From Candidatus Saccharicenans sp. (GTDB taxonomy: Bacteria; Acidobacteriota; Aminicenantia; Aminicenantales; Saccharicenantaceae): 64,000 nt of DNA. Shown piece after piece: positions 4,974 through 43,617 of the stretch. The notes beneath the pieces are model-generated. The model made no database searches, was not told the origin of the DNA, and saw only the letters and a list, made by a program, of their open reading frames with translations. Location of the stretch: NCBI GenBank assembly GCA_024653215.1, contig JANLFU010000009.1:1-64000 (forward strand), given 5' to 3'. Numbering within the stretch: the stretch's first letter is position 1; every line of letters starts with the position of its first letter. Both the position numbers and the translations under genes were made by a program.

Positions 4974-4985
4974 CTATTTAACCCT

Positions 4986-5724: not shown

Positions 5725-5773
5725 TCGCTGCTCCCCGCTGGTTAGTTAGCTCCCGGGCAAAATTCCATATTCT

Positions 5774-5801: not shown

Positions 5802-5811
5802 CAAAAAGTGC

Positions 5812-5839
5812 TTGACAAAATTTAAAAAATGCTGATAAT
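5812..5839 (+). promoter_or_regulatory. promoter of the PEP-CTERM protein and exosortase unit
   Basis: TTGACA (5812-5817), 16-base spacer, GATAAT (5834-5839; 5 of 6 consensus), about 37 bases upstream of the ATG at 5876. A purine-rich site AAGGGG sits at 5861-5866. Both -35 boxes in this gap are perfect and inverted relative to each other (TGTCAA-N10-TTGACA). Confidence 0.6.
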
Positions 5840-5875
5840 CAAAACTGCAAACCTAAAAGAAAGGGGCTAAAGGCT

Positions 5876-6094: not shown

Positions 6095-6147
6095 GATCTC
6101 ATAATCACCTGAGCGGGGCCAGGTCAATTAAAGATTTTTTCCAGTAG

Positions 6148-7029
6148 ATGTTGGAGTCTAAAAGAGGGCGGTTATTTTTTATTCTGCTTTGCTTTTCCTA
6201 TCTTTTGGCAGCTTTTCTGGCTTCTCAGCCCTTGAGATTAATTCTTTCCGATCCAAGAATTGACCTATATTATACCCATATCCCTCTTATTCCCCTTATC
6301 AGTGCTTTTCTGCTGATAAGAAAGAGAAAGATTTTTTTCGCAGATAGTACCCCATCCATCTTTCCGGGTATGACCATAACTATTACAGGCGTTTTCCTAT
6401 ACATATTGGCCAGGTTCTCAATATCTAAAACTGAATATTCAATAGCTGTGGCAGTATTTTCAGCAATCCTATTATTCGCAGGCGTATTGATTACCCTGTA
6501 CGGATTAAAATCTTTCAAGAAGGCTTTCTTTCCCATTGCTTTTTTACTTTTTGCCGTACCAGTGCCCGAATCTATTATGGAAAAGGTCGTGATTGAAATT
6601 GCACGCAACTCGGTCCACGTCACTGATCTTCTCTTTAACCTTATAGGTATTCCTTATATCCGTAAGGGAATCGAGATTTATCTGCCGGGATACATTCTGG
6701 TAGTTGGACCTGAATGCGCTGGTTGGCGCTCCAGCATATCCATCTTGATAATCAGTATATTGGCCGGGCATCTTTTTCTTAAAAAATTCGGGAATAAGCT
6801 CTTGCTGGTCGCCCTGGCCATACCCATGATCATAATCAAGAACGGTATGCGAATTGTAGTGCTCTATCTAATTTCTTACTTCATTGATGAAAGATTCATG
6901 GAGCCCGGGTTTATCCACAGGTCGGTCGGCTATGGGATGTTTACTATTGTTTTGATTATCATGGGTTTGATTTTGTGGTCACTGGAGAAAGAAGAATTAA
7001 GAGAAAGCCAAAATAACCATCAGAGTTAG
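6148..7029 (+). CDS. xrt: exosortase (EpsH-family transpeptidase)
   Basis: A 293-residue multipass membrane protein with about eight hydrophobic segments. The exosortase active-site triad is present in order: Cys190 in PECAGWRSS, Arg235 in IKNGMRIV, His257 in GFIHRSVGYGMF. Exosortases are inner-membrane cysteine enzymes that recognise C-terminal PEP-type signals and sort the protein to the surface. The gene lies 53 bp after the small substrate gene and shares its promoter. No ribosome site is obvious before the ATG, so translation may depend on the upstream gene. Its place beside a polysaccharide cluster agrees with the known link between exosortases and exopolysaccharide loci. Subclass is not assigned. 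Confidence 0.93.
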   Translation: MLESKRGRLFFILLCFSYLLAAFLASQPLRLILSDPRIDLYYTHIPLIPLISAFLLIRKRKIFFADSTPSIFPGMTITITGVFLYILARFSISKTEYSIAVAVFSAILLFAGVLITLYGLKSFKKAFFPIAFLLFAVPVPESIMEKVVIEIARNSVHVTDLLFNLIGIPYIRKGIEIYLPGYILVVGPECAGWRSSISILIISILAGHLFLKKFGNKLLLVALAIPMIIIKNGMRIVVLYLISYFIDERFMEPGFIHRSVGYGMFTIVLIIMGLILWSLEKEELRESQNNHQS

Positions 7030-24484: not shown

Positions 24485-24615
24485 TAATGTTTTACATAAA
24501 TAACAATTTTATATGTTATTATAATACAAATAATACAATATTAAATCAAATAATATTTAACTAATGAATATAAAGATATTTTATTTGTTGATTTCTTTTT
24601 CAGACGAGAACTCAA

Positions 24616-27600: not shown

Positions 27601-27702
27601 TACCTTAGAAAGGTTTGATTGCCCATATATGACAGAATTTACCGGTAATATTACAATAATAAAAGATATAAGGATAGCATATAAGGCTGACCTTTTAGCC
27701 AT
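24616..27702 (-). CDS. secreted seven-PKD-domain protein with C-terminal beta-helix domain
   Basis: About 1,028 residues. The ATG at 27702 is preferred over 27717 because AGAGGTGA lies just before it. A signal peptide (AILISFIIVILPVNSVIYG) is followed by seven tandem PKD domains of about 80-85 residues, each with a WxFGDG-type core (WLWEFGDG, WSWDFGDG, WSWNFGDG; one reads FGDS). The last ~400 residues are a right-handed beta-helix domain shared almost exactly with the next gene. PKD arrays act as extracellular spacers; beta-helices of this kind bind or cut polysaccharides. There is no PEP-CTERM or other sorting signal at the C-terminus (ends HPLRTILGD). It is probably an extracellular matrix or polymer-processing protein heading the minus-strand run to 18222. 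Confidence 0.85.
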   Translation of the reverse strand: MAKRSALYAILISFIIVILPVNSVIYGQSNLSKVIKNQTGSGAKIRATFSYSPVVPVTGVSIRFICKTNYTPDTWLWEFGDGTISYEPSPAHDYDNPGIYNVSLTVSLNGSSARTTKKVRVYAAKATATETKTQELVPAFEFSPATPEVGLNVQFTDQSTGSPTSWSWDFGDGGKSTVQNPQHQYNSSGTFNVTLTVSNGTSTKSLTKTITVIAALTPGFNYSPSNPESGEVIQFQDTTSGNPTSWSWNFGDGSTSNLQNPTHSYNNAGSYNVTLQVSNGYYTKSISKSVTVLAPIVVDFTYNPTAPVAGQDVQFVNSSTGSITSYAWNFGDGATSTLKDPVHKYNNAGAYTVTLTASNSRGSKSKSKTITINQSLNPSFTYTPSSPYAGQSVQFTDTSSGSPTSWQWNFGDSSSSNLQNPSHTYLSAGTYTVTLTVTNSAETKATSKTITVKPVVRADFTYSPTNPMVGTSIQFTDKSTGNITSWSWQFGDGGTSTQKNPTKTYSAAGSYNVKLTVSDGTTSNSMTQTVTVAAAIIADFSYSPASPIVGQEVQFLDNSQGSPTSWTWNFGDGATSTAKNPTHAYSQSGTYTVKLTVSNGTASSSQSKSLTVSSSSKRTITAASCALADVQAAIAEANPGDTVIVPAGRATWDKNLIIRKGITLKGMGIDSTVITCNYNGTGEIMNPGGYFITYEPSSPEGDQPFRLTGFTFNLNNKSGTGGLLLRNPTSYHQTKIRIDHTKWDNVVSGGNIWWIYGYFWGVADNNHFDTPGRFRFYALDSITWSNEIFTFGSANNFYMEDNFIRAHNDDFFYLEAAGRLALRYNTLYFDVQSSGYYPVVDVHGNQPTAWSAAMGFEGYGNEIYAAFGMRLIDMRAGRNLFYNNKITQSSGSSTISAREEYYDSNNPPAHAPDGQPQHVSDSYVFNNYRNGSVLIADFPYTGSQLYYSDEGYYVPTEDLHYWKHNIKFNGSSGVGVGLMSQRPSSCSKEGVAWWSTDENKLYRWKNGRWELYYTPYIYPHPLRTILGD
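24618..25820. repeat. 1,203-bp near-identical direct repeat, copy B
   Basis: Second copy of 22615-23817. It encodes the C-terminal beta-helix of the seven-PKD protein. Outside its borders the two genes differ completely, including the stop codons (TAA here, TGA in copy A). Confidence 0.93.
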
Positions 27703-27766
27703 AGATTCACCTCTCATAGCCTTAGTTAAAATCCATATAACTTTGTCGGGGAGAGATCCTTTGCGG

Positions 27767-28055: not shown

Positions 28056-29375
28056 TTGCCGCCACAATTAGCCCTCATCATTGTATTAATATTCATAGGC
28101 TGCGTAATCTACATCGAACACAAAAAGGCAGAAAATTTAAGTGGCACTGTTTGGATAATTGCTATCTGGATCTTATATTCAGGAAGCAAAGGCTTGGGAT
28201 TTTTTCTGAATATTCATACAACCATAGAAGCTGGGAGCTTGCCTGACAGATATTTTCTATTAGTCTTAGGAATGATATCACTTATCATATTATTAAGAAG
28301 ACATTTTCCACTGACAGCACCAATTAAGAACAATTTTCTAGCTGCTATGATATTAATTTATTCTCTTATTAGTATTCTATGGTCAAGAGATGCCGGGATA
28401 TCATTCAGGAGGTGGGGAAGAGAAGTTGTCGCCTTCTCTATTGCTTTACTCTTATTTTCTGGAAAATACCCAATTAATACTCTTATCAGTGCATTCAAAA
28501 AAGCGATATATGCAGCTCTTCTTTTATCAATATTGCTCATAAAATATTACCCCGCTTATGGACGTTCTTATGGTAGATGGTCAGGAGAAGTTATGTGGGA
28601 GGGCATTGCGAGTCAAAAAAACGGGCTGGCATTGATCTGCGCACTTTCAATTCTTTTTCTAATCTGGTCACTGATTCAAGCATCAAAGAATTTGACAAAA
28701 CCATCATTAAGATTACCTATATTGATTGATATTTTTATGGTTTTACTGGCACTATATTTAATGATGGGACCTAGAAAAACCTTTACCTATTCTGCTACAT
28801 CTTTTTTGTCTTTGCATGTAGGGTTAATTTTTCTTCTTGGCCTTAAATTGACTGAAAATTACCAAATTAACGTCGGTAAAAATATTATTATAATTGCTTT
28901 TATAATAATGGCGGTAGGAATTTTGATGCCGTTTTTAGGAAAGATTCCAAGTCAATCTCTGCCGAGAATGCTTAATAGAAGCGAAACTCTTACTGACCGA
29001 ACTTTAATCTGGAATGCACTGCTTCCATATGCTAAACAACATATATTATTTGGTCATGGTTTCGGGGGCTTCTGGACAACACCTCTGCGAAATGAAATCG
29101 CAAGTCATGCCCATAATGGATATTTAGAAACTATTCTTGAATTAGGCCTATGTGGTTTATTTTTATTCATAACATTTATATTTTTTATAATAAAAAGAAG
29201 TTTAAGCTTCCTAAATAATGAGAGCCCGATTGCATTTTTTTTTATATCATTCATAATAATGATTCTTATCCGCAATATATCTGAAGTATCATTAGGAGAA
29301 TTCGCCAGCTATTCAACATGGCCGTTACTTGCCTGGTCTTTTTTAGTAAGCAAAAAAAATGAGATACAATACTAA
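28056..29375 (+). CDS. O-antigen ligase/polymerase-like membrane protein (Wzy/WaaL family)
   Basis: A 439-residue polytopic membrane protein with about ten to twelve hydrophobic segments. The family's periplasmic loop near the C-terminus is present: GHGFGGFWTTPLRNE then ASHAHNGYLETILELGLCGL, with the conserved His-Asn-x-Tyr-Leu. It would polymerise the repeat unit (Wzy role) or ligate it to an acceptor. In a cluster with Wzx, Wza and Wzc, polymerase is the likelier role. The TTG start is supported by AGGAGA 9 bases upstream and by the N-terminal membrane segment it includes. Confidence 0.85.
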   Translation: MPPQLALIIVLIFIGCVIYIEHKKAENLSGTVWIIAIWILYSGSKGLGFFLNIHTTIEAGSLPDRYFLLVLGMISLIILLRRHFPLTAPIKNNFLAAMILIYSLISILWSRDAGISFRRWGREVVAFSIALLLFSGKYPINTLISAFKKAIYAALLLSILLIKYYPAYGRSYGRWSGEVMWEGIASQKNGLALICALSILFLIWSLIQASKNLTKPSLRLPILIDIFMVLLALYLMMGPRKTFTYSATSFLSLHVGLIFLLGLKLTENYQINVGKNIIIIAFIIMAVGILMPFLGKIPSQSLPRMLNRSETLTDRTLIWNALLPYAKQHILFGHGFGGFWTTPLRNEIASHAHNGYLETILELGLCGLFLFITFIFFIIKRSLSFLNNESPIAFFFISFIIMILIRNISEVSLGEFASYSTWPLLAWSFLVSKKNEIQY

Positions 29376-30351: not shown

Positions 30352-31692
30352 ATGGCATCAAATAAATTTATTATCAGATCAAATATTAAGAACCTAATAA
30401 TAAAATTAAAGCAATCTTCCTTTCTTAAAAACATTTTTATTGTGATGAGTGGAACTGCTATTGCTCAATTCATAACCTATGCATTATCTCCAATTATAAG
30501 CCGCCTTTTTACTCCCGAAGACTTCGGTATATTTGGATCTTTTAGTGCAGTTACGGGAATCATAGGGGCACTTTTAACTTTAGACTATAGTCAGGCATCA
30601 ATGCTTCCAAAAGAAAATCATGACGCCATCAATCTCTTTTGTCTTTCAATAATAACCACCGTTATAATTACATTCATAGCATCGGCCATCAGCATTATAA
30701 AACCATCAATCTTCTATAATCTTACAAGAACCAGGGGCTTGGGGTATCTGCTTCTATTTTTTATTACCTTACTCATTGCTGGCATCAATCAAGCTTCTCA
30801 GGCATGGGCTGTGCGCTCAAAAGCTTTTAATCGGACATCCACCTCTCAGATAATTCGCAGTATTGGATCAAGCGGCTCTAGAATACTGCTTGGATTCATG
30901 AAGACAGGTTCTTTCGGTTTAATAATTAGCAATGCATTTGCTAATCTGCTAGCAAGCATTAATTTATTTCAGATATTGATACCAGATCTAAAATCCATGA
31001 GAAGCAATATCAATCTAAGAATGATGAAATCTCTTGCGAAAGAATACTTAGATTTTCCATTATTTTCAGCATCTCAGAACTTCTTAAACGCAATTTCATC
31101 TGGACTGCCTGTTCTTCTAATAACAAAATATTATGGTCTACATGCAGCAGGCGCCTACGCCTTTGGCCTGACCATACTACAAGCCCCAATGAGCTTAGTT
31201 TTGACCGCTTTGCGTCAAGTTCTTTTCCAAAAAGCCTGCGAGTTTCAACATAAAGGCCAAAAAATATTGTTATTGTATATAAGAACAGTCATTGTACTCT
31301 TTGTAATTGCTTTCATTCCATCTATAATTCTATTCATCTGGGCACCACAGGTATTTACTATAATTTTTGGAGCACAATGGCAACTCGCAGGTATTCTGGC
31401 AAGAAGTTTGATTATCTGGATGCTTTTTGTTTTTTGCAATCTTCCAGCAATAATATTTTCTCGGATTATAAGAATCCAGCGTTTCGTTTTTTTCTATGAT
31501 CTCGTACTTCTAGCAGCAAGAACATTTACTTTAATTATTGGAGGAATACATTTTAAATTAACACAAACTGTAATGGTTTTTGCTATCGTGGGAGCATTAA
31601 TGAATATATATCTTATATATTTTGTCGGCAAACAAGTAGCCAAAAAAGAAAATATGAAATATTCATTAATCCTTATAGATCTTCTCAATTAA
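30352..31692 (+). CDS. Wzx-like oligosaccharide flippase
   Basis: 446 residues with about 12 transmembrane segments, in the MOP/polysaccharide-biosynthesis exporter family. The N-terminus (VMSGTAIAQFITYALSPIIS, then RLFTPEDFGIFGSFSAVTGI) is the characteristic start of Wzx proteins. It would flip undecaprenyl-linked repeat units to the periplasmic face. It is the third gene of the operon starting at 28056 and uses AT-rich codons like its neighbours. Confidence 0.88.
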   Translation: MASNKFIIRSNIKNLIIKLKQSSFLKNIFIVMSGTAIAQFITYALSPIISRLFTPEDFGIFGSFSAVTGIIGALLTLDYSQASMLPKENHDAINLFCLSIITTVIITFIASAISIIKPSIFYNLTRTRGLGYLLLFFITLLIAGINQASQAWAVRSKAFNRTSTSQIIRSIGSSGSRILLGFMKTGSFGLIISNAFANLLASINLFQILIPDLKSMRSNINLRMMKSLAKEYLDFPLFSASQNFLNAISSGLPVLLITKYYGLHAAGAYAFGLTILQAPMSLVLTALRQVLFQKACEFQHKGQKILLLYIRTVIVLFVIAFIPSIILFIWAPQVFTIIFGAQWQLAGILARSLIIWMLFVFCNLPAIIFSRIIRIQRFVFFYDLVLLAARTFTLIIGGIHFKLTQTVMVFAIVGALMNIYLIYFVGKQVAKKENMKYSLILIDLLN

Positions 31693-32254: not shown

Positions 32255-33412
32255 ATGCAAATAAAGAACAGAAAACTTGAAATTAAGGGAGATTGCCAAG
32301 AAATCTCTGTTCTTATAGGTGACTTCCGGCTTTGGTACCGAGTGCCCAAGTATTTAACTATCTCTAATATGGGCGATCCATTCCTGGCTGCAGCTCTACT
32401 CCCTGCTATGGCAAGGGGAGAAGAACTCGAATTTGATGAAAATTTGCCTGTTTCATCTAAACTCCTTCAAAACGCTTATATTCTTCAGGAAATTTTTCAT
32501 AGCTGGAATCCATCTCTTAAAATTATACCAATCAAAGCAATTCCAGAGACAACAAATCAATCCAACGATGGCATAGTCTGTTTTTTTTCCGGAGGCGTTG
32601 ATAGTATTTTTACATTTATAAAGCGTAAGGACGAGCTTACTCATGTGGTCTACATCCGAGGTTTTGACTTTCCCATCGATAATGAAAGCTACAAGACTGT
32701 TTTAGATCGCAATGCAGAATTTGTCAGCCGATATCGCAAGGTTATTATTCCAATTGAAACCAACTTACGAGAGCTCAGCTATTACCATAATTTGAGTATT
32801 CTGCTCACTCAGGGCAGCATTCTGGCTAGTATCGCTCTTCTTCTAGGCTTTCCACGTGTCTATATATCATCATCATATTCATATAGCCAGCTTATACCGT
32901 TGGGTTCCCATCCTCTAACTGATCCTCTCTGGTCTAATGAGGCTACAGAAATTATTCATGATGGCGCTGAAGCTCGAAGAGTGGATAAGATCGTTAGGAT
33001 TGCTGAAGATCCTGCTGCCTTGTCAATCATATTGGTTTGTGCGCGAGATGTAGTCCGAAATTGCGGGTGCTGTGAAAAATGCATAAGAACGATGATTCCA
33101 TTAAGAGTGTTGGGTGTCAAAAGCCCTGCCTTTCCAGATTTTCCTAAACTTTCTGTAATAAAGAAATTGCAAATAAAAAATGAAATAGAAATGATATTTT
33201 TTAAAGAAAATTTAGACCTCGCTATTAATTATGGAGATAAAGACCTGGTAAATGCCATGAGGGCCTACCTGCGACGTTACGAAATGATACAACTATTAAA
33301 AGAAGTAGATAGAGTTGTTCTAGGAGGATTTATAAAGCGGACCCACAGAAGAATAATCAAAAAGCCTTCTTTTTATCGTATTACTATGACACCACGAGAG
33401 TATTTGTTCTGA
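32255..33412 (+). CDS. PP-loop ATPase (QueC-like) of unknown function, paralogue 1
   Basis: 385 residues. The PP-loop FFSGGVDSIFTF is at about 110-121. A zinc-type cluster NCGCCEKC at about 268-275 recalls the CxxC arrangement of QueC and related PP-loop enzymes. Conserved blocks between are SYYHNLSILLTQGSILASIA and YSQLIPLGSHPLTDPLWS. The N-terminal ~100 residues (FRLWYRVPKYLTISNMGDPF) form an extra domain that I do not recognise. PP-loop enzymes adenylate a carboxylate, amide or thiouridine-type substrate to make a new C-N or C-S bond. Length and location in a glycan locus argue against queuosine synthesis. A paralogue follows at 33565. Confidence 0.8.
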   Translation: MQIKNRKLEIKGDCQEISVLIGDFRLWYRVPKYLTISNMGDPFLAAALLPAMARGEELEFDENLPVSSKLLQNAYILQEIFHSWNPSLKIIPIKAIPETTNQSNDGIVCFFSGGVDSIFTFIKRKDELTHVVYIRGFDFPIDNESYKTVLDRNAEFVSRYRKVIIPIETNLRELSYYHNLSILLTQGSILASIALLLGFPRVYISSSYSYSQLIPLGSHPLTDPLWSNEATEIIHDGAEARRVDKIVRIAEDPAALSIILVCARDVVRNCGCCEKCIRTMIPLRVLGVKSPAFPDFPKLSVIKKLQIKNEIEMIFFKENLDLAINYGDKDLVNAMRAYLRRYEMIQLLKEVDRVVLGGFIKRTHRRIIKKPSFYRITMTPREYLF

Positions 33413-33564
33413 TGAGCGTTCATTCGCATTACAGCAATAAAAATTATATATTAATTAATTCAGATCGGGCTTTTAATTTATTATTTCTCATCTGCCCAAA
33501 TTTAATTAATACTAACTCCTATTAAATAAATAAAAATAAGATTTGATAAAAGCAGGGTGTAAAC

Positions 33565-35088
33565 ATGAATATCATCAATCACCAAATAAAATATTCTTAC
33601 GACAAAATAGATATTTCTGCGGATATAGATGGCTTCAGGTTATGGTATAAGATTCCTCCTTCTTATGCTGTCTCCTCTTCAGGAGATCCATTCCTCGCAG
33701 CTTCGCTTCTTCCCGCAATGATAAAAGGAAGTGACATAAGAATCGAGCCCAATTTAAAGATATCCCCTTTTTTAATGCGCAATATCAATACTATTCAAGA
33801 AATTCACCATACTTGGAATCCCAAGCTTAAAATTATATCAGTCAACGCTGATATTCACCCGGCAAAGATATTAAATGATGGCTGCGGATCGTTTTTTTCT
33901 GGCGGAGTAGATAGCACGTATACTTTTTTAAAAAATATTAACGAAATAACCCATATAATCAACATTCATGGTTTTGATTTCCAATTGGATAAAGAAACTC
34001 GAGAAAATCTTCTCTTCACAACTCAAGATATAAAAGATTTAGCACAATTAGCATTTAAATTAGTAAATAGAGTAGACCCTGTTTCGAAATATTTAATGGA
34101 TCAGTTCTCCGAAGGAACCAGGAAACTCCTGACTGCGTATGTAAACTCCGGCTTCATAATTCCAGAAAGAGTCGATAAAAATTTATCGGAATCTTTCAAC
34201 AACATCATTACCGGAGATCTAATTTACGATAAAAATATTTTTGCAGGGAAAAAATTAAGATCCCAAACCAAAGAAATGTTAATGAATAATATGGCTGAAA
34301 ACAGAACTCTCTTAAATAGACTCTTAATTGAGGATTCTTATCCTAAAGAGATATTGGGGAAATATTCTGGTGAGTATGATGAAGTCATCAACCGTCATAA
34401 GCGATTTGCTGAATTTTTCGGCAAAAAACTTATCGCCGTAGAGACCAATTTTTATTCATTCGGTTACAGATATAATCTAAGTCGCAATCTTACTCAAGGA
34501 ACCGCCTTAGCCAGTATTGCATTGCTTCTTGGGTTTCGTACTGTTTATATCCCAGCATCGTATTCTTATTCTCAGCTCTTTCCACTTGGCTCCCATCCCC
34601 TGGTGGATCCTCTCTGGTCGAATGAAGCTGTCAAAATTATCCATGATGGATGCGAGTCAACCCGCACTCAAAAAATTAAAAAGATTTCGGAGAATAAATA
34701 TGCAGTAGAACATCTGCAGGTATGCTTTGATCAAGCATTAGGTAATTGTGGTAAATGTGAGAAATGTATTAGGACATACGTTACCTTAAAACTTCTAAAT
34801 GTTCCTACCATAGCATTTCCAATATCCCCTTCATCCCGCGAGATTCGAAACGCGAAAATTTCAGGAGATATTGAAGAGGCGTTTTTCAAAGAAAATGTCG
34901 ATTTGGCATTGAAAAACAGTAATATCAAATTACGCAAAGAATTATTGAGTTGCTTAAAACGGTATGAGCGCAAAAAAATTTATAAAGATTTGGATAAAAT
35001 ATTGTTTCGAGGAATAATCAGCAAATTATATAGAAACTTAAAAAAAGAAAAACCATCAATATATCGAGTAGATACTAAATATCCATAA
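33565..35088 (+). CDS. PP-loop ATPase (QueC-like) of unknown function, paralogue 2 with ~122-residue insertion
   Basis: 507 residues, colinear with the gene at 32255: the same N-terminal domain (FRLWYKIPPSYAVSSSGDPF), PP-loop FFSGGVDSTYTF at about 110-121, LGSHPLVDPLWSNEA, and cysteine cluster NCGKCEKC at 394-401. The size difference is almost wholly one in-frame, mostly helical insertion at about residues 147-268, placed between the PP-loop half and the rest of the enzyme. It contains TAYVNSGFIIPERVDKNLSE and NRLLIEDSYPKEI. I cannot name this inserted domain. The paralogues probably arose by duplication and may work as a pair or on successive substrates. ATP-dependent adenylation chemistry is expected. 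Confidence 0.8.
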   Translation: MNIINHQIKYSYDKIDISADIDGFRLWYKIPPSYAVSSSGDPFLAASLLPAMIKGSDIRIEPNLKISPFLMRNINTIQEIHHTWNPKLKIISVNADIHPAKILNDGCGSFFSGGVDSTYTFLKNINEITHIINIHGFDFQLDKETRENLLFTTQDIKDLAQLAFKLVNRVDPVSKYLMDQFSEGTRKLLTAYVNSGFIIPERVDKNLSESFNNIITGDLIYDKNIFAGKKLRSQTKEMLMNNMAENRTLLNRLLIEDSYPKEILGKYSGEYDEVINRHKRFAEFFGKKLIAVETNFYSFGYRYNLSRNLTQGTALASIALLLGFRTVYIPASYSYSQLFPLGSHPLVDPLWSNEAVKIIHDGCESTRTQKIKKISENKYAVEHLQVCFDQALGNCGKCEKCIRTYVTLKLLNVPTIAFPISPSSREIRNAKISGDIEEAFFKENVDLALKNSNIKLRKELLSCLKRYERKKIYKDLDKILFRGIISKLYRNLKKEKPSIYRVDTKYP

Positions 35089-35626
35089 TTTTACCACGAT
35101 ATCTTTTTTAATTAGAAAGTATCTGCCTCATAATAACTTTATTTGTCTGGACTTTGTTATCTACCTCGTTTTCATGAGGTCCTTCATGCCCAAATAATCA
35201 TTTATACCTTTCAATCCGAACAAAATATTTTTATTGCCTTTATTATTTTTATATAATTATATTCCACCCAAATTTCTTCTTTATATAAAATGAAAACGAA
35301 TTCAAACCTAGTCATCTTTTCTTATCTTTTAAAAAGTTTTGTTTTTCCAGCTATTTGGAGTCCCACTCCTTTAATATTCTAGCCAAACTCACTTTTAAAT
35401 TCTTATGATCACATTAGCTTAAGTTTTTATTCTGACATCTTAAATTACTTCCTTCCCAAATTCACAACTGTCTTTTAGATACATTAAAACATTAATTACA
35501 ATCCATACATGATTAGGATATTAAAAGTTTTCTCTTGACTCATTTTCCCATATCTTTTAGAGTATATATAAAAAATTAAAACATGGGGCTGAATCTATAA
35601 TGCACCATAGGGTTGATTTAGTATTC
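35089..35626. other. AT-rich intergenic region
   Basis: No gene or RNA is recognised in this 538-bp stretch, which is rich in T and A runs. A TTGACT at 35535 lacks a -10 at proper distance. Confidence 0.4.
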
Positions 35627-35656
35627 TTAAAAATATCATATTGAGGATATTTTTAA
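35627..35656 (+). promoter_or_regulatory. 11-bp inverted repeat before the AlaDH-like gene
   Basis: TTAAAAATATC (35627-35637) and its exact reverse complement (35646-35656) are separated by 8 bases, ending 19 bases before the ATG at 35676. It could be a regulator site or a leader hairpin close to the ribosome site. There is no U-tract, so it is not a normal terminator. Confidence 0.45.
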
Positions 35657-35675
35657 TTTGAAAGGAAAATATCAG

Positions 35676-36818
35676 ATGAAGATTGGTGTAATCGGAAAAT
35701 CTCTAAAAGAAAATGAGCGAAGAGTCCCTATATTACCTGAACATCTTTCAAGAATTCCTGAGAATCTTTTATACAGCATAACATTTGAAAAAGGCTATGG
35801 CTTTAATTTTGGTTATGACGATGAGTATTTTATAAAATTTGGTTCAAGGATCGCTTCAAGGGAAGAGATATTTAATTCTTCAGATTTAATAATCTTACCT
35901 AAGCCTTTGCCTCAGGACCTCAGGCAAATGAAACCTCATCAAATATTGTTTGGATGGGCTCATTGTGTACAACAGAGAGACATAACTCAAGCCGCTATAG
36001 AACAGCACCTCACAATTATCGCCTGGGAATCAATGCATGCCTGGAGCCGAACGGGTGAAAAAAAAATGCATATTTTCTATAAAAACAATGAACTAGCAGG
36101 ATATGCTGCTATAATTCATTGTCTGCAAATTCTTGGGATAGATGGATTCTACGGGCCAAGAAGAAAAGTGGTAATTTTAAGTTATGGATCCGTTAGCCGG
36201 GGAGCAATATACGCACTTCATGGAAGAGGTTTTAACAATATCTATGTCTATTCTCGACGGCCTCCTCATCTTATAGGAGATCAAAACCCAGACGTATATT
36301 ACGGTCAATACTACTTTAACTCTAACGGTGATATTATCATACGGACATCTGAGGGGGTTGAAAAACCATTAATCGCAGAACTTTCAGATGCTGATATTAT
36401 CTGCAACGGAATATTACAAGATGTAAAAAACCCTATTATTTTTATAAACAACGAACAAGTTTATAACCTAAAACCCGGATCCATAATAGTTGACATAAGT
36501 TGCGATCTGGGCATGGGATTCTCATTCGCAAGGCCTACAACTTTCGAAAATCCAGTATTTAAGATAGGTAACAATATAACCTATTATTCCGTCGACCATA
36601 CGCCAAGTTATCTGTGGAACGCGGCTTCGCGTGAAATATCCAAAGCCTTGTTACCATTTTTAGAAATTGTCGCAGCTGGCCCAGAAACTTGGGCCAAGGA
36701 ACCTACTATCTATAATGCCATCGAAATACAGGATGGTTATATCAAAAATCCTGATATATTAACATTTCAGAACAGAGAAAAAGAATATCCCCATAAAATA
36801 ATAATGAATAATTCATAA
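35676..36818 (+). CDS. alanine dehydrogenase/N5-(carboxyethyl)ornithine synthase-like oxidoreductase
   Basis: 380 residues from ATG 35676, which has AAAGGA 9 bases upstream; a TTG 18 bases earlier lacks a site. Layout follows the AlaDH/PNT family: N-terminal KIGVIGKSLKENERRVPILP, FEKGYGFNFGYDDEYF, then a Rossmann domain KVVILSYGSVSRGAIYALHG and IVDISCDLGMGF. It resembles N5-(carboxyethyl)ornithine synthase, which reductively couples an amino group to pyruvate. NAD(P)H-dependent imine reduction or reductive amination is the expected chemistry. In this cluster of amide-forming enzymes it may supply an unusual amino acid. The exact substrate is not readable. Confidence 0.78.
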   Translation: MKIGVIGKSLKENERRVPILPEHLSRIPENLLYSITFEKGYGFNFGYDDEYFIKFGSRIASREEIFNSSDLIILPKPLPQDLRQMKPHQILFGWAHCVQQRDITQAAIEQHLTIIAWESMHAWSRTGEKKMHIFYKNNELAGYAAIIHCLQILGIDGFYGPRRKVVILSYGSVSRGAIYALHGRGFNNIYVYSRRPPHLIGDQNPDVYYGQYYFNSNGDIIIRTSEGVEKPLIAELSDADIICNGILQDVKNPIIFINNEQVYNLKPGSIIVDISCDLGMGFSFARPTTFENPVFKIGNNITYYSVDHTPSYLWNAASREISKALLPFLEIVAAGPETWAKEPTIYNAIEIQDGYIKNPDILTFQNREKEYPHKIIMNNS

Positions 36819-36862
36819 ATGTTATTTAATCTATATAAATATGATTCATTTGGAGATCAATA

Positions 36863-37768
36863 GTGAAATTTATGAATAAACTTTTGATTGACATTTTTTT
36901 AAACAAGCGTATAAGAAAGTTACTATATTTAATATCTCCCAAGATATTAATTTCATATCGATATTTATTGTTGCGTGGCCGCCTACCAATTTTAAACAAC
37001 CCTAAGCTTTTGGACGAAAAATTAATTTGGCTTAATTTATATTGGAAACATCCACTAAAGACTATTTGTGCTGATAAATATTTAGTCAGGAACTATATCA
37101 AAAAACAACATTTGGAAAATATTCTAGTTCCATTGCTCGGAAATTATAGTTCTCCTGACGAAATTGATTTTGATAAGTTACCGAGTAAATTTGTTCTTAA
37201 GTGCAATCATGGTTGCGGTTTTAATATATTCTGTACAGACAAGAGATTTTTTAATTTTCAAAAAGCCAAAACTACCCTATCTAAATGGCAAAGAATTAAT
37301 TTCAGCCACTTATACGGAGAACTTCACTACTCAAGTATAAAACCAATGATCTTATGCGAAGAATTTCTAGATGATAAAACCGGTGCTTTACCAATTGATT
37401 ATAAACTTTATTGCTTTGATGGTTTAGTGCATTGTACTATGGTATGTATCGGAAGAGATATCAATTCAAGAGCAAAACAATATATTTTTTTTGATCGTGA
37501 TTGGAAGAAACGATATCCATATAATACCCAAAGTATTCAAAATAATGCTGATTTTCTCATGCCCGAGGCTTATTTAAAATTAGTTGAATATGCAGAAATA
37601 TTATCCAAGCCATTTCCTTTTGTCCGAATTGATTTTTATATTGTTGACAATAAACCTTTCTTCGGAGAAATGACTTTTACACCTGATGGGTGTATAGATC
37701 CCAACCTGACTCAAGAAGCACAAATGATAATGGGCGATTTGATAAATTTACCTAAAAAATATCTTTAG
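36863..37768 (+). CDS. TupA-like ATP-grasp protein, paralogue 1
   Basis: 301 residues of the TupA-like ATP-grasp family, named after the teichuronopeptide biosynthesis protein. Typical are LLDEKLIWLNLYWKHPLKTI, CADKYLVRNYIKK, the ATP-binding FVLKCNHGCGFNIF, LCEEFL, PIDYKLYCFDGLVH and PFVRIDFYIVDNKPFFGEMT near the Mg-binding end. TupA-type proteins are thought to attach amino acids to polysaccharides through amide bonds. A GTG start (36863) with GGAG upstream is used; an ATG 9 bases later is the alternative. A second family member follows after 3 bp. Confidence 0.83.
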   Translation: MKFMNKLLIDIFLNKRIRKLLYLISPKILISYRYLLLRGRLPILNNPKLLDEKLIWLNLYWKHPLKTICADKYLVRNYIKKQHLENILVPLLGNYSSPDEIDFDKLPSKFVLKCNHGCGFNIFCTDKRFFNFQKAKTTLSKWQRINFSHLYGELHYSSIKPMILCEEFLDDKTGALPIDYKLYCFDGLVHCTMVCIGRDINSRAKQYIFFDRDWKKRYPYNTQSIQNNADFLMPEAYLKLVEYAEILSKPFPFVRIDFYIVDNKPFFGEMTFTPDGCIDPNLTQEAQMIMGDLINLPKKYL

Positions 37769-37771
37769 TCT

Positions 37772-38716
37772 ATGATATATCTAAATTACTTAAAATATAT
37801 AACAATCAAACTTTTGTATGAATTTATTTGTTATTTGTCAAGAGCCTATGGACGCGCAAGATATCGATATGATGTACAGGCAGACATAATAGCATCTTTT
37901 TTAGCAAGGAGCCTATTTCTAATCACTCATGGGTATGTTCCTCGATTTAAAAAGCCCAGAACCTTCTCCGAAAAAATTTTCAATCGAATGCTATATTCGA
38001 GAGATAGAATATGGACATATATTTCAGATAAACTTCTAGCCAGAAAATATGTAAGTCAGTTAGTTGGCGAGCAAATCTTAGTTCCGCTTTTATGGACTGG
38101 AACCAGGCCAGAAGATATTCCTTTTGATTCTTTACCAGATAAATTCGTTATTAAGATGAATCACGGTTGTGGATATAATATCTTCATTAATAAAGAAAAA
38201 GGTATTAATTCTAAAGAAGTTATCAAGAAGCTCACTCTTTGGTCCAAAGAGAACTATTGTCTAGATCGCAATGCAGGATTAGAGTGGGGCTATAAGAATA
38301 TTGACCCTAAAATATTTATTGAATTATTTATTGAAGAAAACGGAAAATCCCCAAAGGATTTCAAATTTTTTTGTTTCTCAGGTAGAGTTGAATATATTCA
38401 AGTAAGCTTTGACAGATTTGGAATTCCATCAGAGAGGATACTTGATCGAGATTTTAACGCACTGGATATCTATAACGGCGTAAAATTATTTGATGGCAGA
38501 ATTGAACAACCAGTTGGTTTTTCTAAAATGATAGAAATCGCGGAAACTCTATCTCGTGAGTTTGACTTCATTCGCGTTGACCTCTATAACATAAAAGGAA
38601 AAATATATTTCGGTGAATTAACCTGTTATCCAGCAGGTGGGTTAGCTCCTTTTATTCCACGCAAGTGGGATTATATTTTTGGTGAGAAATGGAAGATGTC
38701 AAGGATTGAGAAATAA
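37772..38716 (+). CDS. TupA-like ATP-grasp protein, paralogue 2
   Basis: 314 residues, same family as the preceding gene: KPRTFSEKIFNRMLYSRD, ISDKLLARKYVSQLVGE, the nucleotide-binding FVIKMNHGCGYNIFINK, IFIELFIEENGKSPKDFKFF and FDFIRVDLYNIKGKIYFGE. The N-terminus is longer and partly hydrophobic (LKYITIKLLYEFICYLSRAY), which may contact the membrane. It begins 3 bases after the previous stop, and its own stop abuts the ATG of the asparagine-synthase-like gene, so the block is tightly coupled. The paralogues are diverged enough to act on different acceptors or amino acids. Confidence 0.83.
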   Translation: MIYLNYLKYITIKLLYEFICYLSRAYGRARYRYDVQADIIASFLARSLFLITHGYVPRFKKPRTFSEKIFNRMLYSRDRIWTYISDKLLARKYVSQLVGEQILVPLLWTGTRPEDIPFDSLPDKFVIKMNHGCGYNIFINKEKGINSKEVIKKLTLWSKENYCLDRNAGLEWGYKNIDPKIFIELFIEENGKSPKDFKFFCFSGRVEYIQVSFDRFGIPSERILDRDFNALDIYNGVKLFDGRIEQPVGFSKMIEIAETLSREFDFIRVDLYNIKGKIYFGELTCYPAGGLAPFIPRKWDYIFGEKWKMSRIEK

Positions 38717-40564
38717 ATGCCAGGAATTTCGGGATTTATCACTACAAAAGTAACAGGTAATGAAGAAAACTTATTACAAGCGATGAAGTATGCACTCCTG
38801 CATGAATCATCATATACACAAGGTAAATATGAAGATTTCAAAATTGGCTTTTTTGGAGTGTTCTCAGCCATAAAATGCTCTTTTTCCGATTGCATGCCTG
38901 TATATAACGAAAAAAAAGATATTGTAATGTTTTTAACAGGTGAATGTTATGATGATCAAGAAGTTTTATTATCACTAAGAGAAAAGAGTCATAAGTTCGA
39001 GCCTGGCAATGCATCCTATCTGGTGCATAGATATGAGGAACTTGGAGAAAGCTTATTTAAGGAATTAAATGGTTGGTTTCATGGAGTAATTTTAGACCTT
39101 CGCCAAAATATAGTTTTTATTTTTAATGACAGATACGGCATAAGGCGTCTATATATTTATGAAAATCCAGAATTCATAGCTTTTGCTTCTGAAGCCAAAG
39201 CCCTGTTAAGAGCCTTCCCTGAACTCAGAGAAGTGTCGTACCAAAGTATTGGAGAATTCTTAATTTATGACTGCGTACTTCAGAACCGGACGTATTTCCC
39301 ACAAATTCATCTCTTACCACCGGGTTCGCTTTGGATTTATCAGAATGGGAAATTAGAAAAAAAATCTTATATAAATATGAACGAACTCGAGAATCAACAT
39401 AAACTTAGCGTAGAACAATTTAGCTCAGAACTGACAGAAACATTCAAGAATATATTACCGAGATATTTTCAGGGAGGGAGTATTGGACTTGGTCTGACAG
39501 GTGGCCTTGATACCAGAGCCATTATCGCCTGCCGTAACCCTGAGCCCGGAGAACTCCCCTGTTATACGTTTACAGGGAGTTACAAAGATATTTTGGATGC
39601 ACGAATAGCACCAAAGGTAGCCAGAGCATGTGGTCAAAATCATATCAAAATAGTCCTGGAAGATGAAAAACTAATAAAAGAATATCCTTATTGGATTGAG
39701 AAAGCTACTTGGATTTCTGACGGACTTGAGGGGACAGACAAAGCAGACGTTATCTATTTCAATTCAATAGCTCGCGAAATTGCACCTGTAAGGATGACAG
39801 GAAAATATGGAAGTCAAGTTTTGAAAGGGATATTTGGGTTTAAACCAAGGCCGCCGGTATCCGAAATAATTAATCCTGATTTTAAGCCTTACCTTAAAAT
39901 GGCCGAAGAAACGGCTCAAGCTTTTTCCAATACTCATCCTATGACTTTTTTGTTGCAGGGAGCGATCCCATGGTGGTGGAATTCGTTCGTCACCCTCGAG
40001 ACATCGCAGATCGAAATTCGTAGTCCTTTCTTAGATAATGATTTTATTAAAGTCTTATACAGAGCGCCAGAATTGCCAGGCGATTTCGGCATCAAATTTG
40101 AGTTGAACATAATCGCTAGATATAAACCGGAATTGATGAATATCCCGACTACCGGTACTTATGGCGGGAAAGGCATTAGGCCCATTTCAGAGCTGAGAAG
40201 ATTGTGGATTCTAAGCTTAATGATGCTTGATAAAATTTATAATCATGAAGATTTGCCCTATAATTTAACGCACACTTTTGCCGGGATAGATAAGCGGATA
40301 ATCACCCCACTTCATCTGGATCAAATAATTTCAGGTCATGCCGAATTCAGGCGATACAGGCGGTGGTATAGAGATGAATTATCAGGATATATCAAGGACA
40401 TGCTTCTCAATGAAAAGACATTGAGCCGACCTTACTGGAATCGAAAAGGATTAATGAAAGTAGTAAGTGACCATATAAACGGACGCGGGAACTATCTGCG
40501 TGAGATCAGGAAAGCTCTGCAAATAGAATTATTACATAGAGTACTTATCGAAAGAACATATTAA
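38717..40564 (+). CDS. asparagine synthase-like protein lacking the glutaminase cysteine
   Basis: 615 residues with the two-domain AsnB layout. The N-terminal Ntn-type domain begins MPGISGF where active enzymes have MCGI(A/S)GF, so the nucleophile Cys is Pro and glutamine cannot be used. FNDRYGIRRLYIYE and FASEAKALLRAF are otherwise typical. The synthetase domain has a PP-loop-type LGLTGGLDTRAI (usual SGGLDSS). It likely adenylates a carboxylate and uses another amine or free ammonia, as in related beta-lactam- or peptide-forming enzymes. The ATG directly follows the stop of the ATP-grasp gene. It is the last gene of the AT-rich island. Confidence 0.85.
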   Translation: MPGISGFITTKVTGNEENLLQAMKYALLHESSYTQGKYEDFKIGFFGVFSAIKCSFSDCMPVYNEKKDIVMFLTGECYDDQEVLLSLREKSHKFEPGNASYLVHRYEELGESLFKELNGWFHGVILDLRQNIVFIFNDRYGIRRLYIYENPEFIAFASEAKALLRAFPELREVSYQSIGEFLIYDCVLQNRTYFPQIHLLPPGSLWIYQNGKLEKKSYINMNELENQHKLSVEQFSSELTETFKNILPRYFQGGSIGLGLTGGLDTRAIIACRNPEPGELPCYTFTGSYKDILDARIAPKVARACGQNHIKIVLEDEKLIKEYPYWIEKATWISDGLEGTDKADVIYFNSIAREIAPVRMTGKYGSQVLKGIFGFKPRPPVSEIINPDFKPYLKMAEETAQAFSNTHPMTFLLQGAIPWWWNSFVTLETSQIEIRSPFLDNDFIKVLYRAPELPGDFGIKFELNIIARYKPELMNIPTTGTYGGKGIRPISELRRLWILSLMMLDKIYNHEDLPYNLTHTFAGIDKRIITPLHLDQIISGHAEFRRYRRWYRDELSGYIKDMLLNEKTLSRPYWNRKGLMKVVSDHINGRGNYLREIRKALQIELLHRVLIERTY

Positions 40565-40939: not shown

Positions 40940-42052
40940 ATGCCAAACATCCCCTTTGTTGACCTGAAAAGCCAGTATCATTCCATCAAGTCCGAGGTTG
41001 ACTCGGCCATCCAGTCAGTCCTCAATGACACGGCTTTTGTCGGCGGAAAATACGTCGATTCCTTTGAAAAGGACTTCGCCGCTCGATACGGAGTCAAGCA
41101 CTGTATTACCTGCGCCAACGGCACCGATGCCATCTACATCAGCCTTAAAGCCGCCGGCATTGGCCCAGGAGATGAAGTCATCACCGCTGCCAACACTTTT
41201 ATTGCCACCTCCGAAGCCATTACCCAGGCCGGCGCGCGCCCGGTATTCGTCGACAACGATGATTATTACCACTTGGACCCGGATAAACTGGAGGAAAAAA
41301 TCACACCCAGGACCAGGGCCGTTATCCCCGTCCACCTTTACGGCCAGCCGGCAGCCATTGATACAATTAAAGCCATCTGCGATCGCCACCGGCTCATAAT
41401 GATCGAAGACTGCGCCCAGTCTCACTTCGCCACCTTCAACGGCCACAGAACCGGCACTTTCGGTCTAGCCGGGACTTTTAGCTTTTACCCTGGAAAGAAT
41501 CTCGGGGCCTATGGTGACGGCGGCGCCATCATCACCAACGATGACGAATTCGCCCGCCGCGCCCGCCTGTTCGCCAACCATGGCTCCCAGAAAAAATACA
41601 TCCACGAGATTGAAGGAATAAACAGCCGTCTCGACGGACTGCAGGCTGCTATTCTCAGCGTCAAGCTCAAATACATAGAAGGTTGGAACCGGGCCCGCTA
41701 CCAGCACGCCCTGAAACTAAACCAGCTCCTCTCCGACATTCCCCAGATCACCACCCCGAAAATCCGGCCCGGCTGTTCCCACATCTTCCACATTTACTGC
41801 ATCAGGGTTCCGGAGCGCGAGAAATTAATTGATTACTTAAAAGCTCAGGGCATTGCTACCAACATCCATTACCCCTATGCCCTACCATTCGCACAGGCCT
41901 ACGCTTATCTCAATCACAGGCCAGAAGACTTCCCCGTGGCTTACGCCTACCAGGGTCAGATTCTTTCCCTGCCGATGTTCCCTGAGCTAACGGAGGAGCA
42001 AATAGAGTATATTTCGGAATGTTTGCATAAATTTTATTCCAACCGGGTTTAG
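40940..42052 (+). CDS. DegT/DnrJ/EryC1-family sugar aminotransferase (WbpE-like)
   Basis: A 370-residue PLP-dependent sugar aminotransferase. Motifs: FVDLKSQYHSIKSE start, ANGTDAIYISLKAAGIGPGD, VIPVHLYGQP, MIEDCAQSHFATFNG and the PLP lysine in TFSFYPGKNLGAYGDGG. It adds an amino group, normally from glutamate, to a keto-sugar nucleotide. Together with the following oxidoreductase and hexapeptide acetyltransferase it matches the WbpB-WbpE-WbpD set that makes UDP-2,3-diacetamido-2,3-dideoxy-glucuronic acid. It is the first gene of the GC-rich operon after the structured leader. Confidence 0.9.
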   Translation: MPNIPFVDLKSQYHSIKSEVDSAIQSVLNDTAFVGGKYVDSFEKDFAARYGVKHCITCANGTDAIYISLKAAGIGPGDEVITAANTFIATSEAITQAGARPVFVDNDDYYHLDPDKLEEKITPRTRAVIPVHLYGQPAAIDTIKAICDRHRLIMIEDCAQSHFATFNGHRTGTFGLAGTFSFYPGKNLGAYGDGGAIITNDDEFARRARLFANHGSQKKYIHEIEGINSRLDGLQAAILSVKLKYIEGWNRARYQHALKLNQLLSDIPQITTPKIRPGCSHIFHIYCIRVPEREKLIDYLKAQGIATNIHYPYALPFAQAYAYLNHRPEDFPVAYAYQGQILSLPMFPELTEEQIEYISECLHKFYSNRV

Positions 42053-42084
42053 CCAAGGACCCGGCGGGAAAAGGGAGCGGAGAC

Positions 42085-43107
42085 ATGATAAATGTCGGCG
42101 TTATCGGTTTCGGTTACTGGGGGCCGAACGTAGCCCGGAACTTTAATGCCAGCCCGGAGGCCCGGCTCACAGCTATCTGTGACCTGAGGCCCCAACGGAT
42201 GCTGGTGGCTACTTCGACCTACCCCTTCATCAAGTCTTACACCAACCCGGATGAGCTCATCAAGGACCCGGAAATAGACGTGGTGGCCGTGGTCACGCCT
42301 GTTTCCAGCCACTATGACCTGGCCCGCAAGGCCCTGCTCAACGGAAAGCATGTGTTCGTGGAAAAGCCATTTACGATTAACAGCCAGGAAGCGGAAGACC
42401 TGATTGAGCTGGCCGCCAAGAAGAACCTAAAGATAATGGTGGACCACACCTTCCTCTTTACCGGTGCTGTAATCAAGATGAAAGAGCTCATTGACTCGGG
42501 CGAGCTCGGAAACATCCTCTTCTACGACTCTGTCCGGGTCAACCTGGGTCTTTTCCAGCACGACGTCAACGTGGTCTGGGACTTAGCCCCGCACGATTTC
42601 TCCATCATGTGTCACCTGATAAAGGAAAAACCGGTGGCCGTCTCGGCCCAGGGTGTTTCACATTACAACGGCGATTTTGAGGACGTGGCCTACATCACGG
42701 TTTACTTCAACAACCCGCATCTCATCGCCCATTTCCACGTCAACTGGCTGAGCCCGGTTAAGGTGCGCCGCACTATCATCAGCGGCAACCGCAAGATGCT
42801 GCTCTGGGACGACATTTCGGCCGACGAAAAGGTCAAAATCTATGACCGCGGCGTTGAGCTCAAAATCCAGACCTCGGAAGAACATGTCCACAACATGCTC
42901 ATCAATTATCGCATCGGTGATGTCTACGTGCCCAAGCTGGAACCAACCGAGGCCCTGAAAAAAGAAGTTGACTATTTTATAGAATGCCTGAAGCAGAATA
43001 AGGAACCTTTCAACAACGGAGAGGCTGGCCTGATGGTGGTCAAGCTGCTGGAGGCTTCCAACAGGTCTATCGCCCAGAAGGGCCATCTGGTAAAATTGAC
43101 AGAGTAG
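42085..43107 (+). CDS. Gfo/Idh/MocA-family dehydrogenase (WbpB-like)
   Basis: 340 residues. NAD-binding start INVGVIGFGYWGPNVARNF, then VVAVVTPVSSHYDLA and the family EKP motif in GKHVFVEKPFTINSQEA. The middle VVWDLAPHDFSIMCHLI supplies the family's catalytic His region. In the WbpB/WlbA role it oxidises the C3 hydroxyl of UDP-GlcNAcA to a ketone for the aminotransferase. Position between the aminotransferase (32 bp) and acetyltransferase (27 bp) genes supports that. Substrate specificity is inferred from context. Confidence 0.88.
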   Translation: MINVGVIGFGYWGPNVARNFNASPEARLTAICDLRPQRMLVATSTYPFIKSYTNPDELIKDPEIDVVAVVTPVSSHYDLARKALLNGKHVFVEKPFTINSQEAEDLIELAAKKNLKIMVDHTFLFTGAVIKMKELIDSGELGNILFYDSVRVNLGLFQHDVNVVWDLAPHDFSIMCHLIKEKPVAVSAQGVSHYNGDFEDVAYITVYFNNPHLIAHFHVNWLSPVKVRRTIISGNRKMLLWDDISADEKVKIYDRGVELKIQTSEEHVHNMLINYRIGDVYVPKLEPTEALKKEVDYFIECLKQNKEPFNNGEAGLMVVKLLEASNRSIAQKGHLVKLTE

Positions 43108-43134
43108 ACAAATTCAGGCTGAAGGGAGGACCTG

Positions 43135-43617
43135 ATGGAATACTGTCGCATTGCCCCCGACGTCAGGCTCGGGGAAAACGTTAAAATTTTCGCCTTTGTC
43201 AACCTCTATGGCTGCACCATCGGCGACAACACCAAGATCGGAACCTTCGTGGAAATCCAGAAAGGCGCGGTTATCGGCAAGAACTGCAAGATTTCCTCTC
43301 ACACCTTCATCTGCGAGGGCGTGACCATTGAAGATGGAGTCTTTATCGGCCACGGCGTGACCTTCATCAATGACCTATATCCTAGGGCCACAACCGAGGA
43401 AGGCTCTCTCCAGACCGAGCAGGACTGGAAAGTGATCCCTACCCTGGTTAAAAAGCGGGCTTCCATTGGCTCTGGCGCCACCATCCTGGCCGGGGTGACC
43501 ATTGGCGAAGAGGCCATCGTCGGGGCCGGCTCGGTGGTTACGAAAGATGTCCCGCCCCGCACCGTGGTGGCCGGCAACCCGGCCCGGGTGCTGCGGACTC
43601 TTGACGACAAAACTTGA
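43135..43617 (+). CDS. hexapeptide-repeat sugar N-acetyltransferase (WbpD-like)
   Basis: 160 residues of left-handed beta-helix with hexapeptide repeats throughout (IGDNTKIGTFVEIQKGAVIG, IEDGVFIGHGVTFINDLYPR, IGSGATILAGVTIG) and the closing VVAGNPARVLRTL. The FINDLYPR block is typical of WbpD/WlbB-type N-acetyltransferases acting on 3-amino sugar nucleotides. Acetyl-CoA would acetylate the amine added by the gene at 40940. A strong ribosome site (AGGGAGG) precedes the ATG. Confidence 0.88.
   Translation: MEYCRIAPDVRLGENVKIFAFVNLYGCTIGDNTKIGTFVEIQKGAVIGKNCKISSHTFICEGVTIEDGVFIGHGVTFINDLYPRATTEEGSLQTEQDWKVIPTLVKKRASIGSGATILAGVTIGEEAIVGAGSVVTKDVPPRTVVAGNPARVLRTLDDKT

Follow-up and report, generated by a model that had tools for sequence, protein, structure and literature searches.

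To our knowledge, the decoration of bacterial glycans with amino acids is known chemically, and few of its enzymes are known. Opine-type amino acids are amide-linked to bacterial glycans, as carboxyethyl-lysine on GalA and alanopine on Qui4N (accessible part of PMC10609480), and in the capsule of Campylobacter jejuni the TupA-like domain of Cj1438C amidates the carboxylate of GlcA (accessible part of PMC11800379). Here we analysed six consecutive genes (A to F) at positions 32255-40564 of a 64,000-nucleotide stretch of Candidatus Saccharicenans sp. (GenBank assembly GCA_024653215.1, contig JANLFU010000009.1, positions 1 to 64,000 of the forward strand), the whole of which is called the window below. 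We give about an even chance to the reading that A-F form an exchangeable decoration cassette of a Wzx/Wzy-type exopolysaccharide locus, with C-F as the working unit and A and B as further carboxylate activators. The PP-loop family to which A and B belong is the part worth following, being broad, linked to asparagine-synthase-like (AsnB-like) proteins and, as far as searched, undescribed.

The six genes and their distribution

The analysis of open reading frames (ORFs) gave one open frame for each of the six plus-strand genes:

32255..33412, plus strand: A, PP-loop protein of an unnamed family, 385 aa, with FSGGVDS at residues 111-117 and C262-x7-C270-x2-C273-x2-C276
33565..35088, plus strand: B, sister PP-loop protein, 507 aa, with the motifs of A and an insertion of about 120 aa
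35089..35675: AT-rich gap of 587 bp between A-B and C-F
35676..36818, plus strand: C, dehydrogenase resembling alanine dehydrogenase and N(5)-(carboxyethyl)ornithine synthase (Pfam, alignment), 380-386 aa depending on the choice of start
36863..37768, plus strand: D, TupA-like ATP-grasp protein of the amidoligase family (PF14305), 301 aa
37772..38716, plus strand: E, TupA-like ATP-grasp protein (PF14305), 314 aa
38717..40564, plus strand: F, asparagine-synthase-like protein without Cys2 (Pfam), 615 aa

ORFs, Pfam and motifs confirmed the initial annotation, made from the sequence alone, as to six consecutive plus-strand genes of these families. The AT-rich setting that it described was also found, the GC content of the A-F stretch being 0.32-0.39 against 0.51-0.59 past 41 kb (2-kb segments). 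The spacing is unlike that of one operon and divides the genes into two groups, A-B and then C-D-E-F, with intergenic distances of 152 bp (A-B), 587 bp (B-C), 44 bp (C-D), 3 bp (D-E) and 0 bp (E-F). No stop-to-stop frame longer than 41 aa was found in the B-C gap.

The six genes occupy a slot that is bordered by wzx on the left and by conserved sugar genes on the right:

28056-29375: wzy, 5' of A-F, followed by a family-2 glycosyltransferase (GT2) gene and then wzx
30352..31692, plus strand: wzx-like flippase gene, left border of the variable slot (Polysacc_synt_3 over cut-off)
40940..43617, plus strand: DegT aminotransferase, Gfo/Idh dehydrogenase and hexapeptide acyltransferase-like genes, the conserved right border

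The right-border genes would serve 3-amino-sugar synthesis; the model nearest to the Gfo/Idh dehydrogenase is UDP-GlcNAc 3-dehydrogenase (171.6 of 450 bits).

The distribution of the genes was followed in 34 genomes of the same family and 297 of the phylum, the own genome being counted in each set; the phylum was searched with A, C and PF14305, and F in the family set only. Within the family, A and B were confined to the own genome, TupA genes were found in three genomes (own, G224 and G310), and outside the own genome C was seen only in G303 (L213), as a stop-containing 65% fragment. F-like proteins at E <= 1e-15 were present in seven of the 34 genomes, reaching 72% identity or more in three only (own, G224 and G311), and the DegT right-border gene was present in 14 (E <= 1e-100). 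In the phylum set, A-like genes were found in 13 genomes, C-like genes in 19 (E <= 1e-20) and TupA in nine. All three occurred together in the own genome only, and the sole other genome with two of them (G034) has A-like and TupA genes on separate short contigs (L039, L167). The six-gene set is thus a local mosaic and not a conserved block, and the co-occurring system suggested by the initial annotation was rejected on the independent occurrence of the genes in both genome sets.

Other occupants of the slot were seen in related genomes. G248 carries wzy, a GT2 gene, an ORF of 503 aa and DegT, and G178 carries wzy, a family-4 glycosyltransferase (GT4) gene, then wzx and a GT2 gene on the other strand and then DegT, both without A-F. 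In G224, DegT adjoins F (72% identical), which is followed by E, and the last 913 bp between E and the contig end had no match to the window reference proteins; in G311, DegT and an intact F precede the contig end. One contig of G310 has wzy, GT2 and wzx followed by an E-like TupA gene, and another has a transposase gene and a D-like TupA gene. A TupA in G310 had D as its best window match; E was the best for TupA genes of G310 and G224. In all three genomes with F or TupA (G224, G310 and G311) the contigs end at the slot, and from what they contain TupA and F are therefore part of its recurrent repertoire.

These data bear on the view that A-F co-evolved as a dedicated amide-forming module with one peptide-like product. 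Six consecutive same-strand genes, all of carboxylate-activating or amino-acid families, speak for such a module, as does the general linkage of PP-loop and AsnB-like genes described below. We nevertheless judge it very improbable, since the six are not together in any other family genome, A, C and PF14305 are not together elsewhere among the 297, the 587-bp gap separates B from C, and sibling genomes have E and F, F or TupA without A, B and C, though their contigs end nearby.

Genes C to F and their relatives

C scored over the Pfam cut-offs of AlaDh_PNT_N (65.2 vs 30.4) and AlaDh_PNT_C (51.5 vs 23) and under the alanine dehydrogenase equivalog cut-off TIGR00518 (87.5 of 391.85 bits). It is 40-41% identical to E. 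coli (41%) and Streptomyces plasmid proteins annotated as N(5)-(carboxyethyl)ornithine synthase, 28% identical to a Lactococcus garvieae protein with the same annotation, and about 24-27% identical to plasmid proteins annotated as alanine dehydrogenase. The alignment keeps the K, H and D positions, which we take to be the alanine dehydrogenase active site.

A relative of C and the gene preceding it match side by side in five of 5,426 E. coli genomes, as two divergent types, two at 100% on plasmids and three at 70.8% on chromosomes. The partner is annotated as ATP-grasp in one E. coli record. Its chromosomal form has an ATP-grasp Pfam match barely over the cut-off (20.0 vs 19.8), and its plasmid form has no Pfam match and four weak PDB matches, all to ATP-grasp enzymes (E 0.47-0.68). 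Flippase and glycosyltransferase genes lie near the plasmid form in its two records, the longer of which also contains a nucleotide-sugar dehydrogenase gene; in the one of three chromosomal records that was read, a PF14305 fragment and a flippase gene lie amid insertion sequences. The E. coli pairing of a C relative with an ATP-grasp gene is the same as that of C with D and E. On the best reading, C-E would produce an opine-like amino acid that is then attached to a glycan, because of this pairing, the known opine-amide glycans and the TupA amidation in Campylobacter.

In E. coli L6-21 a polysaccharide island full of insertion sequences (L248:8953-16505) combines a C relative with an ATP-grasp gene, a flippase gene and a fragment of TupA type. 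In G228 (L154:3805-10756) and G276 (L158) a C relative lies 3' of a one-module non-ribosomal peptide synthetase (NRPS) with a 439-aa gene between them; condensation, adenylation, carrier and thioesterase domains were identified in the G228 enzyme, the one on which the domain scan was run. The G228 and G276 loci may be small opine-peptide clusters.

D and E matched ATPgrasp_TupA (PF14305) with 150.5 and 151.9 bits against a cut-off of 25 and are 34% identical to each other; plasmid-borne relatives of theirs carry the annotation 'ATP-grasp fold amidoligase family protein'. F contains Asn_synthase and GATase_7 over the Pfam cut-offs and stays under the glutamine-hydrolysing cut-offs TIGR01536 (118.6 of 267.1) and TIGR03108 (103.1 of 816.9). 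Its frame starts MPGISG and therefore lacks Cys2, and the MPGI start is also found in its 72% orthologs of G224 and G311, in agreement with the Cys-less asparagine synthase relative initially proposed. Relatives at 33% start with MPGL in G264 (without Cys2) and with LCGI in G306. In logic F is presumably closest to Cys-less AsnB relatives such as beta-lactam synthetase.

The PP-loop family of A and B

A and B are 46-48% identical over two aligned parts and are sisters in the tree (support 98/90). Both have FSGGVDS, so that the two PP-loop ATPases of the initial annotation stand as such, as sister paralogs and not as two kinds of PP-loop enzyme. In a QueC-type motif test the PP-loop and CxxCxxC, a putative zinc motif, were present in both. 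Structure prediction, which had been suggested for the pair, gave a confident AlphaFold model of A from a 90-sequence alignment (pLDDT 94.6, pTM 0.91) and a poor result for the insertion of B (about residues 150-270), in nearly all blocks of which pLDDT is below 60 and for which no Pfam match was found.

A genome scan with one peptide pattern found at least 553 stretches encoding proteins of this family, the 80 named loci being the best of these. The tree of 90 family sequences and ten array members (see below) spans 18 bacterial phyla, and family members occur on haloarchaeal plasmids too. The four cysteines are invariant in the alignment of 90 members, 89 of which show the pattern Cx(5-14)CxxCxxC. 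Of the same 90, 87 have [ST]GGxD[SGA] and 52 its strict form SGGxDS, while none has any of the canonical QueC motifs YxQxHxxE, YPDC and VPxRN (as in the accessible text of PMC13329287).

Family searches gave no assignment for A in Pfam, NCBIfam or the PDB sequence search, and for B only sub-threshold Pfam matches, including QueC (PF06508; 14.4 bits vs a cut-off of 22), and none in NCBIfam. The PDB profile search reached QatC with E 0.008 when 14 family sequences were used and with E 0.19 when 90 were used. Pfam gave weak QueC matches in 8/14 members and matches to DUF6395 (PF19932) in 6/14, the latter with a best E of 0.0035, weak matches for which the cut-off was not seen. NCBIfam gave weak matches to asparagine synthase in nine of the 90 members, to QatC in four and to QueC and LarE in one each, and the best E for any curated model was the 1.2e-5 of asparagine synthase among the members scanned (14 in Pfam, 90 in NCBIfam). 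PADLOC searches with A, B, an array member and a further PP-loop relative gave no match at E <= 0.01. With no Pfam, NCBIfam or PADLOC model passed, A and B were rejected as QueC or anti-phage defence proteins. They were also rejected as WbpG-type amidotransferases, a candidate family whose model should presumably be within NCBIfam, where neither has a match. A limited literature search found no description tying such PP-loop proteins to exopolysaccharide or amide-forming polysaccharide clusters and no paper naming DUF6395; polysaccharide, asparagine and DUF6395 are nowhere mentioned in the accessible main text of PMC13329287.

Neighbours were counted in 99 of 100 loci chosen by the PP-loop gene alone (L045 was without a profile hit). 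Genes in the fetched loci were called by simple scripts that favoured frames matching the reference set, equally at every distance; starts and neighbours are approximate, above all in high-GC loci. The adjacent ORFs comprised 163 unique ones, 144 with a length of 150-750 aa; the Pfam census covered 103 of the 163, and polysaccharide pyruvyl transferase (15 ORFs) and asparagine synthase (11) were its two commonest families. AsnB-like genes made up 15/199 neighbours at distance 1 against 3/686 at distances 4-10 (Fisher p = 5e-8), and pyruvyl transferases 14/199 against 0/686 (p = 6e-10), counts in which, as in the shuffles, related loci are not independent. No such gradient was seen for GT4 genes (5/199 vs 47/686) and a slight one for GT2 genes (12/199 vs 29/686). 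An adjacent AsnB-like gene was present in 15/99 loci compared to 5.9 +/- 1.8 in shuffled gene orders, and an adjacent pyruvyl-transferase gene in 14/99 compared to 4.5 +/- 1.7; the observed values were reached in 0/2000 shuffles in either case. PP-loop genes of this family are thus linked to AsnB-like and pyruvyl-transferase genes. ATP-grasp_ST and FemAB-like neighbours, with two and four hits in the 99 loci, were too few to test.

By called starts, two of the 15 adjacent AsnB-like proteins begin with MCG, one at L071 and one at L038, where the gene runs opposite to the PP-loop gene, and 13 do not. A distinct Cys2-less AsnB-like subfamily comprises eight complete genes (594-664 aa) and one in two pieces; all nine share the strand of their PP-loop gene, and 8/9 overlap it or lie at most 50 bp away. 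Of eight more distant AsnB-like ORFs six keep the cysteine, one is without it and one is the second piece of the split subfamily gene. The subfamily was observed beside PP-loop genes at L040, L060, L065, L077, L080, L083, L084, L098 and L085, in at least five phyla. F was rejected as a member, with 52.6 bits against 805-874 for the eight profile-building sequences.

Ten-gene PP-loop arrays

At least two PP-loop ORFs are listed in 20/99 loci, a count that includes overlapping frames and at least one gene in two pieces (L116). Genome G192 encodes ten PP-loop paralogs of 402-421 aa in one row (L038:2405-14884), with 35-52% mutual identity and both motifs in each. Eight of the nine junctions are 4-nt overlaps and one is a 38-nt gap (by called start). 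Its flanks hold MacB/FtsX and HlyD export genes as well as a gene for a cysteine-bearing AsnB, which is oriented against the row. G320, the sole other genome examined from the family of G192 (same genus, different species), repeats all ten in unchanged order, with a break between two contigs (L240, L241) inside the fourth gene, and its export flank also has an ABC-2 gene. Orthologs in the two arrays share 66-87% identity, compared with 39-53% for the next paralog, and the ten members form one clade (100/100). No glycosyltransferase was found among the flanking proteins scanned, 10 from G192 and two from G320.

That ten distinct paralogs have been retained in order, next to genes for export, suggests as many different steps, and the array looks like an unknown biosynthetic cluster. 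A broader proposal, which we put forward tentatively and think more doubtful than probable, is that the A/B family consists of widespread PP-loop amide ligases of template-free, enzyme-per-step assembly lines, in which each paralog would join one carboxylate to one specific amine. Alone or paired, and together with an AsnB partner of the Cys-less kind, they would act on surface glycans, whereas the ten-enzyme row would make an exported oligo-amide. The family might in this way reveal another non-ribosomal route to amides.

Proposed function and competing explanations

Glycan decoration with amino-acid chemistry is the most likely role of the cassette. C would reduce the imine of pyruvate and an amino acid (or ammonia), giving an N-(1-carboxyethyl) amino acid or alanine, and D and E would convert a carboxylate into an acyl phosphate and then form an amide bond to a glycan building block. 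F would adenylate a carboxylate and, because it has no glutaminase cysteine, couple this to some amine and not to ammonia from glutamine. A and B would activate a carboxylate with ATP, placing another amide-type (less likely thio-) group on the same polymer. We infer these reactions and their substrates from gene families, as well as the service of A-B and C-F to one polymer. The amide and amino-acid theme of the initial annotation fits the families, the TupA precedent, the E. coli pairing of C and the AsnB linkage, although the genes occur independently. Its statement that no such combination has been described holds for the six-gene set, whereas C with ATP-grasp/TupA genes resembles known glycan amino-acid decoration.

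A number of observations weigh against the decoration cassette. In the window C, D and E stand between B and F, so A and B are not adjacent to F, and no pyruvyl transferase was found among the 10 window proteins scanned with Pfam. C, D and E as single-sequence queries gave no match at E <= 1e-3 in the 100 PP-loop loci, a search that distant members could escape. No window polysaccharide gene was matched in the seven stretches around the closest phylum relatives of C (47-51%). The C relatives of G228 and G276 each have one AMP-ligase-type match nearby, which in G228 is the one-module NRPS. The seven proteins near C relatives that were scanned with Pfam (three stretches) included one sub-threshold Wzi match, in G198. 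In the own genome, which is 91.8% complete, no protein scored over the PF03721 cut-off for UDP-sugar 6-dehydrogenases, so that the usual uronic acceptor is not evident; such a match is present in 25/34 family genomes, including the TupA-bearing G224 and G310. Either the 6-dehydrogenase gene would lie in the missing genome part, or the amide would be formed on an amino sugar served by the right-border genes.

To these points are added the fold comparison of A and the condition of F in G224. Foldseek gave no PDB match at E <= 0.001 for the model of A, so that the confident structure carries no significant fold assignment. The first rows were mostly PP-loop enzymes with TtuA, NcsA and ThiI (sulfur transfer) foremost, none of them significant, and Cap9 had the top target TM-score (0.55) among the 50 matches listed. 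Together with the LarE model match in one of the 90 members, these first ranks would be consistent with A and B being sulfur transferases or other HUP enzymes in the style of TtuA, ThiI or LarE, which would thiolate a glycan or small molecule and carry an Fe-S cluster on the four cysteines. We consider this unlikely, since no hit was significant, the cysteine spacing resembles the QueC zinc motif and not a three-cysteine site, the weak profile matches lean to asparagine synthase (9/90), QatC (4/90) and QueC, and AsnB-like genes are frequent neighbours.

F of G224 (L168:9228-11075) contains two stop codons. Like the C fragment with a stop in G303, the transposase gene adjoining TupA in G310 and the mosaic distribution itself, this would be expected if A-F were unrelated genes carried along in a capsule-type locus that often recombines, each acting separately or decaying. 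This explanation also appears improbable to us, as none of the six frames is interrupted here, C-F lie only 44, 3 and 0 bp apart, and a C relative recurs with an ATP-grasp gene in E. coli.

Read as a decoration cassette, A-F offer candidate enzymes for each step of glycan amino-acid decoration, and a first activity for the PP-loop family would annotate hundreds of hypothetical proteins.

Other features of the locus

A polyprenyl glycosylphosphotransferase gene (TIGR03025 over cut-off) lies 3' of A-F, with Wza- and Wzc-like genes further 3' (judged from translations, without a family search). NAD synthase, acyl-CoA ligase and exosortase genes at 2100-7029 mark the left edge of the polysaccharide locus. 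The exosortase gene passes the TIGR02602 cut-off, and the ligase resembles the exosortase A-associated ligase with a score under the cut-off of that model. An adjacent pair of PKD-type genes on the minus strand (22613-27717) is nearly identical over the C-terminal ~400 residues, which suggests recent duplication or gene conversion. Scans for promoters (46 vs 38.3 +/- 5.5 expected) and terminators (6 vs 5.9 +/- 2.6 expected) were uninformative.

Comparison with known systems

F has the two-domain layout of AsnB and of the XrtA/PEP-CTERM amidotransferase (TIGR03108), from which it differs in lacking Cys2 and in scoring far under the equivalog cut-offs. C shares both AlaDH/PNT domains with the N(5)-(carboxyethyl)ornithine synthase/alanine dehydrogenase family, its likeness to the synthase being a similarity to proteins annotated as such. 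D and E agree with TupA-like amidoligases of the Cj1438C type (PF14305) in family, by Pfam score, and in their polysaccharide locus; unlike in the Cj1438C system, they are two side-by-side copies, in a genome with no UDP-glucuronate-type dehydrogenase over cut-off. The A/B family has the PP-loop motif and the CxxCxxC cluster in common with QueC, QatC and Cap9 (PF06508), and its cysteine spacing C-x7-C-x2-C-x2-C is like that of the QueC zinc motif and unlike the three-cysteine site. It is set apart from QueC by the missing substrate motifs and by the PF06508 cut-off, which A and B do not reach, and from QueC, QatC and Cap9 alike by longer proteins, additional N- and C-terminal parts and a glycan-locus context.

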